This document shows positions 10,723 to 19,769 of a stretch of 37,046 nucleotides of DNA, one piece after another. The stretch's first letter is position 1, and each line of letters starts with the position of its first letter. The notes below the pieces were generated by a model that was not told where the DNA came from, searched no databases, and saw only the letters and a list, made by a program, of their open reading frames with translations. Source of the DNA: an uncultured Pelagibacteraceae bacterium (lineage in GTDB: Bacteria > Pseudomonadota > Alphaproteobacteria > Pelagibacterales > Pelagibacteraceae); contig CACDSA010000008.1 of the NCBI GenBank assembly GCA_902555185.1, positions 1 to 37,046 on the forward strand. The letters run 5' to 3'. The translations under genes and the position numbers were made by a program.

Positions 10723-11424
10723 ATGCATGAAATAACTCAAATTCGAAAATTGAGTATATGGATTTTTTTTATTCCATTAAGTGCGATTAATCTTTGCTTA
10801 ATAATCTCTCAAAATCCTGAATTTCTAAATAACACAATATTTGCTGTTGACCAAATTGGTAGATCTGATTTTTCTTTTCCCTATGTAGACGGAAGTTTGT
10901 CAATAAGTAGGGCTTCCAGAACTTTCCCTCAATATCTAATCTTTAAACCTTCAATGTTTTTAACAGCGTTTCTTTTGTATTACTATTGGAAAAATAATAA
11001 CGATCTTGTAAATAAATTATATTCTACAAAAATTAACTATAAGTTTAAAATTTTTGGAATTTTATCTGCAATTTTTTTAGCTGTTCATTCAATTTTCTTA
11101 GGAATAAAATTTGATATTCAATTATATAAGTTATTTAGACGAGTAGTTTTAGTTTTATTTATTTTGTTTGAATTAGTTGCTCAGGGATATTTGGTTTATC
11201 ATTTTTATAAATTAAAAAATAAACTTGAGAAATTTGTGATTAAAAAATTTTTAATAATGAAAATTTTGCTTGTAAGTGTTTTGGTTTTAACTGCAGTTTT
11301 AAGTCTTCCTACTCTTGTTACAAAGGGAAATACTCATTTTAAACATATGTTGGAATGGAATTACTTTGTTGGTGTTATAGTTTTTTATTTATTTTCAAGA
11401 TTTTTTTGGAGAAGAACCACATAA
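10723..11424 (+). CDS. Unknown integral membrane protein
   Basis: Not recognised. A 233-residue protein with about six hydrophobic segments: residues 12-30, 75-90, about 108-125, 138-160, 175-195 and 210-228. The first extracytoplasmic loop (NPEFLNNTIFAVDQIGRSDF and the following SFPYVDGSLSISRASRT) is polar, and basic residues follow the membrane segments on the predicted cytoplasmic side. No catalytic motif stands out. It follows the basic peptide by 14 bases and ends just before the structured spacer at 11.42 kb. Confidence 0.75.
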   Translation: MHEITQIRKLSIWIFFIPLSAINLCLIISQNPEFLNNTIFAVDQIGRSDFSFPYVDGSLSISRASRTFPQYLIFKPSMFLTAFLLYYYWKNNNDLVNKLYSTKINYKFKIFGILSAIFLAVHSIFLGIKFDIQLYKLFRRVVLVLFILFELVAQGYLVYHFYKLKNKLEKFVIKKFLIMKILLVSVLVLTAVLSLPTLVTKGNTHFKHMLEWNYFVGVIVFYLFSRFFWRRTT

Positions 11425-11597
11425 ATTTCTAGGCTTTCGCCCAGAAATTTAGTAGTTTTGGCTCGTCGTTTTAGGCGCTACCGCCAAGCCATCCCGATGA
11501 ACTATTCTAGCGCTACTAGGTTCATCTTTCTGCCCCTTAAGCTTGAACCTCTCGGTTTTTCCTTAAATGGCCAGTTAAGAGTTGCCTCTTAATTGGG
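11421..11597 (-). ncRNA. Candidate structured non-coding RNA (unidentified)
   Basis: This spacer is clearly richer in G and C than its surroundings and packed with hairpins. Stems are 11422-11434 with 11439-11451 (13 pairs), 11460-11463 with 11487-11490 enclosing 11474-11477 with 11482-11485, 11496-11502 with 11520-11526, and 11571-11581 with 11586-11596. Read on the minus strand, the outer two end in GNRA tetraloops (GAAA and GCAA), and the first is fully paired with a G-U pair where the plus strand would have an A-C mismatch. This favours minus-strand transcription. I could not match it to tmRNA, RNase P, SRP or 6S RNA. It lies downstream of mnmA on the same strand, with a possible TATGAT -10 at about 11607-11612. 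Confidence 0.6.
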
Positions 11598-11662
11598 TTT
11601 AGTAAATCATAACCTATTTAAAAACACTATCACCTATTACGTGTCTGGTTGATGGTTGTTAA

Positions 11663-12790
11663 TTAAGTGGATAAATTATTATTGAAAGTCTTATCTATCC
11701 ATCCTCCACCTAGAACTTTATCCCCAACGTCATCTTTAAAATAAAAAACACATGCCTGACCTGGAGAAATTCCAGTTTCTTTTTCTAAAATTTCTACTTC
11801 CGCTTTACCGTTTTTGAATTTAATTTTAGACTTCAACAATTTACCAGTTGAACGAACCTTAATATTAATTGTTTTTTCAAAATCTTTTTTTTGGCCTAAA
11901 ATATTTAAATTCCTTAATAGAAGTTTTTTTATTTCTAGATTCTCTTTGTTGCCAACTATCAAAGTATTTTTATCAGCATCTATATTTATAACATACAGTG
12001 GTTTTTCACTGGAAATTTTTATGCCTTTCCTTTGTCCAATTGTATAATTTATAATCCCGTTATGCTCTCCGATTTGTTCCCCAAATAAATTAATTATTTT
12101 ACCCTTTTTAAAGGAATCTGGTCTAAATTTTTTTATTACAGAACTATAGTCTCCGTTAGGAACAAAACATATGTCCTGACTATCAGGTTTGTCAGCTACA
12201 TTTAAATTCAATTTTTTTGCCAAAGATCTTGTCTCATATTTTTCTATTTCTCCTAAAGGGAATCTTAAATAATCTAATTGTTCTTGAGTTGTGCTAAATA
12301 AAAAATAGCTTTGATCCCTATTAAGATCCTTTGCGCGATACATATTTGCACAATTATTATTTTGAATTCTTGAAACATAATGACCTGTTACTAAAGCGTC
12401 TGCTTTTAAATCTTTAGCATATTTAAATAGATCTCTAAATTTTACGGTTTGATTGCATTGAACGCATGGAATCGGTGTTTCTCCAGCTGCATAACTATCA
12501 ATAAAAGAGTCGATTACTTCTGATTTAAATTTTTTCTGATAATATAAAATTTCGTGATTAATGTTAATTTTTTCTGATACTCTTTTAGCATCCATAATGT
12601 CCTGTCCAGCACAACATTGTCTGCCTTCTTTAGACTGCTTCGTGTCATCATAAAGTTTTAAAGTTATACCTGTAACATTATAACCTTCCTCTTTCATAAG
12701 TGCTGCTACTACCGAAGAGTCGACACCGCCAGACATCGCTACTACAACTTTAGTTTCTTTTTTAGATTTATTAATTCCTAGAGAATTCAT
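11663..12790 (-). CDS. mnmA: tRNA-specific 2-thiouridylase
   Basis: A 375-residue enzyme that installs the 2-thio group on U34 of Lys, Glu and Gln tRNAs, using ATP and sulfur relayed from a cysteine desulfurase. The PP-loop SGGVDSS is at residues 20-26. The catalytic cysteine pair is C112 (in [11 protein letters not shown]) and C208 (in DSQDICFV). The family's [16 protein letters not shown] and YTIGQRKGI motifs follow, and the C-terminal beta-barrel ends with SPGQACVFY. Length is normal. The gene is divergent from the DUF3553 gene, with a spacer of only 40 bases. Confidence 0.97.
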
Positions 12791-12830
12791 ATTTTAAAGT
12801 GTATAATATATTTATAATTTGTTTTCCATA

Positions 12831-13004
12831 ATGCTTATTGATTTTGAACCAGGTGATTATGTTAAAAACCCTGCTCATGAGAGCTGGGGTATTGGGCAAG
12901 TTCAATCAATTATAGGTAATAAAGTAACAGTAAATTTCGAAAATTTTGGAAAAAGAGTGATTAATGCAGAAAATGTAAAATTAGAAAAAATAGAGAATGA
13001 ATAA
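12831..13004 (+). CDS. DUF3553 family small protein
   Basis: A 57-residue protein matching the DUF3553 pattern of alphaproteobacteria: FEPGDYVKNPAHESWGIGQV, then VTVNFENFGKRVIN. This looks like a small SH3-like barrel of the CarD/UvrD-tail type that could bind protein or nucleic acid; the biochemical role is unknown. The ATG at 12831 is preferred to an in-frame TTG twelve bases upstream because family members begin close to the FEPGD motif. Its end overlaps the cysQ start by 8 bases, implying coupled translation. Confidence 0.85.
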   Translation: MLIDFEPGDYVKNPAHESWGIGQVQSIIGNKVTVNFENFGKRVINAENVKLEKIENE

Positions 13005-17033: not shown

Positions 17034-18323
17034 CTAGTCTCTTATTGAATAAGCTGTTACGCCGACCTCAGCCTTGTCTGTTCCTAGTTTCTCAGCTGCT
17101 TTACTTATTCTTAAACCAATTGTGGACTTAAGAGCTGTAAAGGTAGCCCAAGATAACGCGAAACTAAATACACATACGGATGCTGTACCAATAAATTGAG
17201 TTCCAAACGATGTGTCTGTATTAGTTAAAGGAACTACGAGTGTACCAAATATACCAGCAAACATGTGTACTGGAATAGCTCCGACGACATCGTCTAAACC
17301 GTAACTCTCTAACATTTTAGTTCCAAAATACATTATTATGGCTCCAATAGATCCGATGAACATTGCTGTAATAGGTCCAGGTGTTAATGGTTCGGCTGTG
17401 ATGGCAACTAGACCGGCTAATGCGCCGTTAAGCATCATCACGATATCAGTTTTTCCTCCGATCAATCTTGTAATCGCGGCTCCAGTAAAAGTACCAGCAG
17501 CTCCAGCTAAATGCGTGTTCACTGCAATTTTTGAAATTGCATTTACATCATCAAATGTTCCCATTGCTAATTGGCTAAAGCCATTAAATCCAAACCAACC
17601 AAACCAAAGTAAAAACGTTCCTAAAGTTACTAATGGAATACTTGATGCTGCGAAAGGCTGCATAGATTTTTTTTCACCTTTTCTGCCAAACCTTCCTTCT
17701 CGAGCGCCTAAGACTATGACTCCTGCAAGTGCTGCTGCACCTCCGCAACCGTGAACCAAAGTAGATCCTGCAAAATCTGAAAATCCGCCACTTGCTAACC
17801 AGCCACCTCCCCATTGCCAGCCCATAGAAATTGGGTAGATAATTCCAGCCATCACTGCTGCGAAAATGAAGAATGGCCAGATCTTAATTCTCTCTGCTAC
17901 TGCTCCAGAAACAATTGAAGCTGTTGCGCACACGAACATTGTTTGAAAGAACCAGTCTGAATAGCCTGAATATCCTGTTTCAGCATTAGACGAGTCAGTC
18001 CAAATCGTAAATGAACCTACATAACCACCTTCTGGCACTCCGTAAGCTAAATTATAGCCAACTAAAAAGAATACCAGCGAGCATATAGCGAATTTACCTA
18101 TATTTTTCGCTGCAATTGTCGATACACTTTTTGTAGTCACTAATCCACTCTCAAGCATGCAGAAACCTGCTGCCATGAAAGCTACTAGCACTCCACCAAT
18201 ATAAAACCCTAACGAGTTGAAAATATATTGTCCTTCTTGAGACATTGTAGTTTCTGCAAAGCTTTGAGAGCTAATTAGTAGAGCAGAAATACAACCTAAT
18301 AAAATGAAAGTTAATTTTTTCAT
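17034..18323 (-). CDS. amt: Ammonium transporter, downstream paralogue
   Basis: A 429-residue Amt/MEP/Rh family channel with eleven membrane segments after a cleavable-looking signal peptide (residues 1-21, ending SFAET). The twin pore histidines are visible in DFAGSTLVHGCGG and VGAIPVHMFAG. I place the start at 18323 because the purine-rich GGGGGAAAC ribosome site lies just before it and the signal peptide begins there; an upstream ATG at 18389 would add an unlikely extension. It follows a close paralogue in the same direction. High-affinity ammonium uptake fits nitrogen-poor ocean water. No glnK gene lies next to it. Confidence 0.95.
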   Translation of the reverse strand: MKKLTFILLGCISALLISSQSFAETTMSQEGQYIFNSLGFYIGGVLVAFMAAGFCMLESGLVTTKSVSTIAAKNIGKFAICSLVFFLVGYNLAYGVPEGGYVGSFTIWTDSSNAETGYSGYSDWFFQTMFVCATASIVSGAVAERIKIWPFFIFAAVMAGIIYPISMGWQWGGGWLASGGFSDFAGSTLVHGCGGAAALAGVIVLGAREGRFGRKGEKKSMQPFAASSIPLVTLGTFLLWFGWFGFNGFSQLAMGTFDDVNAISKIAVNTHLAGAAGTFTGAAITRLIGGKTDIVMMLNGALAGLVAITAEPLTPGPITAMFIGSIGAIIMYFGTKMLESYGLDDVVGAIPVHMFAGIFGTLVVPLTNTDTSFGTQFIGTASVCVFSFALSWATFTALKSTIGLRISKAAEKLGTDKAEVGVTAYSIRD

Positions 18324-18378
18324 GTTTCCCCCTTTTTTTTGAAAACTTGATATCAAATTTAAAAGGTTTGAAGCATGA

Positions 18379-18384
18379 ATTATA
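18379..18384 (-). promoter_or_regulatory. Possible -10 box of the downstream amt gene
   Basis: Perfect TATAAT on the minus strand, between the terminator of the upstream amt gene and the start at 18323, preceded by TGCA. A TTTACA lies too close (13 bases) to be a normal -35, so the assignment is tentative. No sigma-54 GG-N10-GC pattern was found here. Confidence 0.35.
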
Positions 18385-18409
18385 TGCATACGAGCTTTGT
18401 AAAATAAAT

Positions 18410-18441
18410 AAGGCCTGGACGGGGGATCCGAACCAGGCCTT
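18410..18441 (-). terminator. Intrinsic terminator after the upstream amt gene
   Basis: A perfect 9-pair GC-rich stem (18410-18418 with 18433-18441, AAGGCCTGG/CCAGGCCTT) with a 14-base loop, followed on the minus strand by TATTTATTTT. It separates the two amt genes, so they are probably separate transcripts or joined only by read-through. Confidence 0.8.
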
Positions 18442-18476
18442 AAAATTTTCCCAACTAACGAGGGAGGGAATTTTAA

Positions 18477-19769
18477 TTAGTCTCTGATACCGTAAGCTAT
18501 TACACCGACTTCTGCTTTGTCAGTTCCTAGTCTTTCAGCTTCCTTACTTATTCTTAATCCAATTGTACTTTTGATAATTTGGAAAACAATAAATGAGACT
18601 ATGAATACGAATACCACAACTGAGATAGTTCCTAAGAATTGTGCTCCGAAAGTAACATCTCCATTTGTTAATGGCACTGCTAATGTACCCCATACACCAG
18701 CTACTAAGTGTGCTGGGATGGCTCCAACTACGTCGTCAATTTTCATTTTGAATAATAGTTTTGTCGAGAAGTACATTAATACTCCAGCTATTGCTCCAAT
18801 GAAGATTGCAGCTAACGGACTTGGTGTTAATGGTTCTGCGGTAATACCTACTAATCCAGCAATTGCGCCGTTTAGCATCATTACTACGTCAGTCTTTCCA
18901 CCAATAACTCTTGATACTGTAGCAGCGGCTAATACACCACCACCTGCAGCTAAGTTCGTATTGATATAAATTGTTGCAACTGCAGAAACGTCTTCTAGCG
19001 TTCCAGAAGCTAACTGAGATCCACCATTAAATCCGAACCAACCTAACCAAAGTATAAATACTCCTAGGGTTGCTAACGGAATTGATGATGCAGCAAATGG
19101 TGCCATCGGTTTAGCCTCGCCTTTTCCTGAAAATCTGCCACTTCTTGCACCTAATACTATTGCACCTGCAAGAGCCGCAGCTCCTCCAGCAGCGTGTACT
19201 AATGTTGAACCAGCAAAGTCTGAAAATCCAGCGACTGATAACCATCCGCCACCCCACTGCCAGCCCATTGAAATAGGATATATTATTCCAGTTAAAATTG
19301 CGGCAAATAAGAAAAATGGCCAGATCTTAATCCTTTCAGCTAACGTTCCAGATACGATTGACATTGTAGTGGCACAGAACACCATTTGGAAAAACCAATC
19401 AGAACCATCAGAATATCCTGTATCTAATGATGAGTTATCACTCCATGGTGTGAATGAACCTATATATCCTCCTTCTGGGATACCGTAAGCTAAATTGTAA
19501 CCAACCAACCAGAACATTACTCCAGCGATTGAATAAAGACCTATATTTTTTGCACAGATTGCTGACACAGATTTTGATGTTACTAATCCTGACTCTAACA
19601 TTGCGAAACCTGCGGCCATCCACATGACCAAGAAACCTGACATCAAAAATAATAGGGTATTAAAAATGTATTGTACTTCTGCGGAAACTGTAGTCTCAGC
19701 GTATCCAAGACCAGCGAAGCCAAAGTAAATGGCTGTCCCTGCTAGAAAGTATCCTAAGTATTTTTTCAT
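18477..19769 (-). CDS. amt: Ammonium transporter, upstream paralogue
   Basis: A 430-residue Amt channel very similar to the neighbour throughout, with its own signal peptide (residues 1-24, ending GLGYAET). Pore residues are conserved: DFAGSTLVHAAGG and VGAIPAHLVAG carry the twin histidines, and the ends of both proteins match (LGTDKAEVGV). Differences cluster in the signal peptide and in the segment after the second PFAASS motif, so the copies arose by tandem duplication and have diverged. One paralogue may sense rather than transport, or have a different affinity; the sequence alone does not say which. Confidence 0.95.
   Translation of the reverse strand: MKKYLGYFLAGTAIYFGFAGLGYAETTVSAEVQYIFNTLLFLMSGFLVMWMAAGFAMLESGLVTSKSVSAICAKNIGLYSIAGVMFWLVGYNLAYGIPEGGYIGSFTPWSDNSSLDTGYSDGSDWFFQMVFCATTMSIVSGTLAERIKIWPFFLFAAILTGIIYPISMGWQWGGGWLSVAGFSDFAGSTLVHAAGGAAALAGAIVLGARSGRFSGKGEAKPMAPFAASSIPLATLGVFILWLGWFGFNGGSQLASGTLEDVSAVATIYINTNLAAGGGVLAAATVSRVIGGKTDVVMMLNGAIAGLVGITAEPLTPSPLAAIFIGAIAGVLMYFSTKLLFKMKIDDVVGAIPAHLVAGVWGTLAVPLTNGDVTFGAQFLGTISVVVFVFIVSFIVFQIIKSTIGLRISKEAERLGTDKAEVGVIAYGIRD

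Follow-up and report, generated by a model that had tools for sequence, protein, structure and literature searches.

An IMES-2 family RNA downstream of mnmA in Pelagibacteraceae: predicted transcription unit and putative kissing-loop fold

The IMES-2 locus and its predicted transcription signals

The window analyzed here, a stretch of 37,046 nucleotides from an uncultured Pelagibacteraceae bacterium (GenBank assembly GCA_902555185.1, contig CACDSA010000008.1), carries a member of the IMES-2 RNA family between mnmA, which ends at position 11663, and a convergent open reading frame. Few cells in the sea are as abundant as those of SAR11 bacteria. IMES-2 was reportedly catalogued in 2009 from marine metagenomes, and to our knowledge no function has been assigned to the family. 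A literature search for IMES-2 yielded nothing of substance, and a 2009 survey of structured RNAs in Pelagibacter ubique HTCC1062 mentions neither IMES nor mnmA (PMC2704228). The convergent frame (10723-11424, plus strand) encodes a membrane-like protein of 233 residues without a Pfam match, and it stays beside mnmA and the RNA in the window's genus and in one other. A 61-amino-acid DUF3553 protein is encoded beside mnmA (12819-13004, plus strand) and has the same neighbors in related genomes. Elsewhere in the window, two tandem genes on the minus strand (17034-19769) resemble, by eye, paralogues of an ammonium transporter.

A cmscan search of the whole window returned a single match above threshold, to RF02035 (IMES-2), at 11458-11599 on the minus strand, scoring 152.4 bits where the gathering threshold is 54.7, with an E-value of 4.1e-40. 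The match covers the complete model (1-141 of 141) and thus settles the identity of the RNA. A sequence-only reading of this DNA had proposed an unidentified structured RNA at 11421-11597, downstream of mnmA and best read on the minus strand. The existence of the RNA, its location and its orientation are all confirmed; it was wrong, however, to call the RNA unidentified, and the Rfam match is the outcome that the reading itself described as "merely known". Within this already known family the locus is unremarkable. The same reading was right in finding no likeness to tmRNA, RNase P, SRP or 6S RNA: ARAGORN detects neither tmRNA nor tRNA, the RNase P RNA and SRP RNA covariance models give no match up to an E-value of 10 within 11300-11800, and the 6S RNA model RF00013 has no match at the locus, which folds into four hairpins and not into one long bulged hairpin. 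In a permissive scan of 11300-11800, no other Rfam family approached the strength of this match.

The sequences flanking the core argue strongly that IMES-2 is its own transcription unit, with a predicted σ70-like promoter and a terminator. On the minus strand, a -35-like hexamer, GTGATA (11628-11633), is separated by a 16-base spacer from a -10-like hexamer, TATGAT (11606-11611), which ends 7 bases before the core. In 96 of 97 copies the core is preceded, at a distance of 33-36 bases, by a GTGAT-type -35 site, as compared to about 1% in shuffled sequence. On the other side of the core, a hairpin resembling an intrinsic terminator, with a GAAA loop and a T-rich tail (11422-11451, minus strand), lies immediately past the stop codon of the convergent frame on the plus strand. 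All 98 copies have a hairpin more stable than -8 kcal/mol after the core, and 85 of these copies also have a T-rich tail (at least four T in the next nine bases); the T tail is weak in this window's copy. Upstream of the promoter is a conserved element, TTATCCACTTAATTAACA (11657-11674, minus strand), consisting of a near match to the DnaA box followed by a second half-site. This element overlaps the last mnmA codons and encodes the last MnmA residues. When we searched the 817-kb genome for a shared regulon, no other site with one mismatch or fewer was found.

Fold of the core and the putative contact between P3 and P4

The G+C content of 11440-11619 is 0.43, as compared to 0.17-0.36 in neighboring segments, bearing out an impression of raised GC that had been gained from the letters alone. 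For the minus strand the calculated folding energy is -67.5 kcal/mol (z -6.3), and none of 200 shuffled sequences folds as well. The plus strand reaches a z of -4.0; an RNA on that strand was rejected, since its fold is weaker and the conserved promoter and terminator face the opposite way. A protein-coding sequence was likewise rejected, as every frame is interrupted within the core in at least 96 of 98 copies, with core lengths of 140-142 bases.

Within the core (11458-11599, minus strand), P1 (11575-11592) is a hairpin of seven pairs closed by a GCAA loop, with 100% of its cells paired and two-sided changes in three pairs. P2 (11530-11574) comprises an outer stem of 11 pairs, six of them with two-sided changes, a 4x4 internal loop (GAAA/CAAG), and an inner stem of four pairs, two of them with two-sided changes, ending in a GAGA loop. 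P3 (11496-11526) has a 15-base loop and two-sided changes in eight of eight pairs. In P4 (11460-11490), three pairs show two-sided changes, a number that rises to five in the wider alignment; at one P4 position that Rfam draws as paired, the copies have G.A and no pairing occurs. Some 180 bases with four stable hairpins, two of them with GNRA loops on the minus strand, had been noted earlier: the structure and the GNRA loops are real, but the minus strand has five hairpins (P1-P4 and the terminator hairpin) and three GNRA loops (GCAA in P1, GAGA in P2 and GAAA in the terminator). The G-U pair noticed in that orientation corresponds to a U-G pair in P4 (column 114/136), which is UG in 27 of 31 copies.

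Compensatory changes, which had been suggested as a check on the structure, are abundant in related copies. Across 31 copies, 94.8% of the cells in the four Rfam hairpins and the kissing helix described below pair, and pairing falls to 31-40% when the partner is slid by 1-3 columns. Two-sided changes occur in 25 of the 45 pairs of the nested structure plus kissing helix, as compared to 13.6 in shuffles. This covariation supports both the predicted four-hairpin IMES-2 consensus structure and the membership of the locus in the family. Among unpaired bases, conservation is strongest in the GNRA loops, in the A-rich internal loop that interrupts P2, in an AAA joint preceding P3, and in the P3 and P4 loops.

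Between the P3 and P4 loops there is very probably a kissing contact, in which GCGCUA of the P3 loop (11508-11513, minus strand) would pair with UAGCGC of the P4 loop (11475-11480, minus strand); the two halves show compensatory changes. Among 97 distinct rows of the alignment, pair 94/130 occurs as GC 88 times and as AU 9 times and is never unpaired (GC 89 and AU 9 in all 98 copies), and a tree from which the loop columns were left out requires at least four changes of this pair. Pair 93/131 is CG in 90 of these rows, UA in 5, AU in 1 and unpaired in one. Overall, 17 cells of the kissing helix carry two-sided changes in the 97 rows, as compared to 2.5 in shuffles. Because the alignment, which includes the two g2 copies, was model-fitted to the nested structure alone, it is not biased toward the kissing helix. 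The loop combinations encountered are GCGCU/AGCGC, GCACU/AGUGC (in two distant genera), GUACU/AGUAC (in two genera), GAACU/AGUUC and UCGCU/AGCGA. Neither GCACU/AGUGC nor GAACU/AGUUC is palindromic, which means that the pairing runs from loop to loop and not from each loop to itself, and the adjacency of the loops favors pairing within one molecule over pairing between two. The outermost pair, 92/132, fails to form in 28 of the 97 rows, most of them from one clade with UCGCU/AGCGC, in which a bulged base would restore pairing; the helix is thus fairly stated as having five or six pairs. As far as can be told the kissing contact is new; it is absent from the Rfam line printed by cmscan, which omits pseudoknots. 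An alternative in which AGUAG of the P3 loop would pair with CUACU of the 3' linker is good in the window, shows no covariation by eye, and was dropped.

In purine-riboswitch-type kissing hairpins, two adjacent hairpins are joined loop to loop, an arrangement that P3 and P4 of IMES-2 resemble. IMES-2 differs from this type in lacking a three-way junction and a consistent downstream gene.

Hosts and gene neighborhoods

IMES-2 is present at one copy per genome and is found in 133 of 169 genomes of the window's genus and in 140 of 297 genomes of the order, which belong to four of eleven genera. In a class-wide sample of 289 genomes there were only two matches, both within the window's own family and none outside it. 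A GTDB pattern search with the conserved 5' part of the RNA returned at least 119 stretches, and all 80 of the 80 matches listed come from Pelagibacteraceae or Pelagibacterales (SAR11), that is, from marine hosts. The catalogued family and the copies found here share the same four hairpins, a full-length model match and Pelagibacteraceae hosts. The RNA is missing from about half of the order, including one genome of 1,308,759 bases (G011), and is therefore dispensable. Two custom models, the second of which included the most divergent copies, revealed no convincing diverged copies in the match-less genomes beyond the two g2 genomes already known; two candidates of this kind, G092 and G180, were rejected at 16 bits, which is noise level. 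Other families (SAR11_0636, ffh), but no IMES-2, occupy the HTCC1062-like spacers that we compared. BLAST found no IMES-2 in phage or plasmid records, and one IMG/VR pattern hit was discarded, as it lies inside a long phage open reading frame and fails the model.

The four genera present three gene neighborhoods. The window's genus and a second one have the RNA between mnmA and the convergent frame without a Pfam match; in a third it is flanked by a tyrosine recombinase gene and ogt, and in a fourth by a thermonuclease gene and an SRAP gene (the gene names of the last two neighborhoods were assigned by eye). The upstream element recurs in all three, and the upstream region common to them consists of a TTATCCAC-type element followed by a CAAC..AAGTGATAC block. 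The core is 92-97% identical to that of four relatives from the window's genus, in which mnmA DNA is 76-81% identical. In a fifth genus relative (L033) the core is only 71% identical, with P3 and P4 rebuilt, which is the source of much of the covariation. In IMES-2-free genomes of the genus with the ogt neighborhood (L057 and L060-L063), we noted by eye recombinase-like sequence near ogt and a different spacer where the RNA would be.

These neighborhoods bear on whether IMES-2 is a cis-regulatory, riboswitch-like leader of a downstream gene. One genus has the RNA directly upstream of ogt and in the same direction, with the terminator between them. The downstream neighbor is convergent in the other three of the four genera, however, so that cis control is precluded there, and the same promoter travels with the RNA. 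Among the four genera compared, we found no gene type that recurs downstream in the sense direction. We consider a cis leader very improbable: the promoter and terminator common to the three neighborhoods indicate a free-standing RNA gene and not an element of mnmA or a riboswitch. The promoter and terminator anatomy, the shift of neighborhood between genera and the firm assignment of hosts are, as far as can be told, also new.

Candidate modes of action

The explanation that we favor on balance is that IMES-2 is a gene with a kissing-loop fold whose product would act in trans as a compact, protein-binding RNA scaffold. In this proposal the gene is a single-copy non-coding unit made up of the upstream element, the σ70-like promoter, the four hairpins and the terminator hairpin. 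An RNA of about 180-190 bases would be transcribed from its own promoter, and its compact fold may bind one or more proteins, either sequestering them or forming a ribonucleoprotein. A scaffold appears most likely because the conserved unpaired bases reside in the GNRA, A-rich and kissing loops and in the joint, and not in a free stretch. The proposed manner of protein binding is like that of 6S and CsrB-type RNAs, to which the IMES-2 fold is unrelated. A more elaborate version, which we regard as speculative and rather unlikely, is that IMES-2 forms the RNA core of a SAR11-specific ribonucleoprotein, encoded on a self-contained unit of about 250 bases that has moved between genera, has been lost in about half of the lineages, and is controlled by a factor binding the TTATCCAC-type element. 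With named hosts, a predicted start and terminator, a supported tertiary contact and closely related genomes with and without IMES-2, its function becomes directly testable, and the kissing contact makes the fold testable as well.

The strongest competitor is that IMES-2 serves as an antisense sRNA, dependent on Hfq or ProQ, with a short seed for base-pairing to mRNAs. In favor of this reading are a promoter of its own and a terminator that in most copies has a T-rich tail; the size of IMES-2 fits, and pairing is absent from the 5' leader and from the joint between P2 and P3. This leader shows no conservation, however, the invariant unpaired bases occur in the GNRA and A-rich internal loops, and both large loops are used internally. 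We therefore judge an antisense sRNA possible but doubtful. Whether IMES-2 acts by binding protein rather than by antisense pairing is, taken as a separate question, evenly poised in our estimate.

A third proposal is that IMES-2 stands in for 6S RNA in SAR11. Both are free-standing bacterial RNAs of similar length with a possible protein-binding role, and RF00013 matches none of 24 SAR11 genomes while control genomes score. IMES-2 differs from 6S RNA in sequence, structure and fold, with four short hairpins against one long bulged hairpin, and the genomes without IMES-2 are also without a recognizable 6S RNA, so it would be no general replacement; we find this proposal improbable. Least credible, along with the cis leader, is a ribozyme or other catalytic or ligand-binding RNA acting in trans, which the compact fold, kissing contact and GNRA loops could accommodate, but for which no catalytic motif was recognized and no other Rfam family matches. 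The RF00013 survey, in which G000 was one of the 24 SAR11 genomes and both the Caulobacter and E. coli controls were positive, indicates in its own right that 6S RNA has been either lost or diverged in SAR11.
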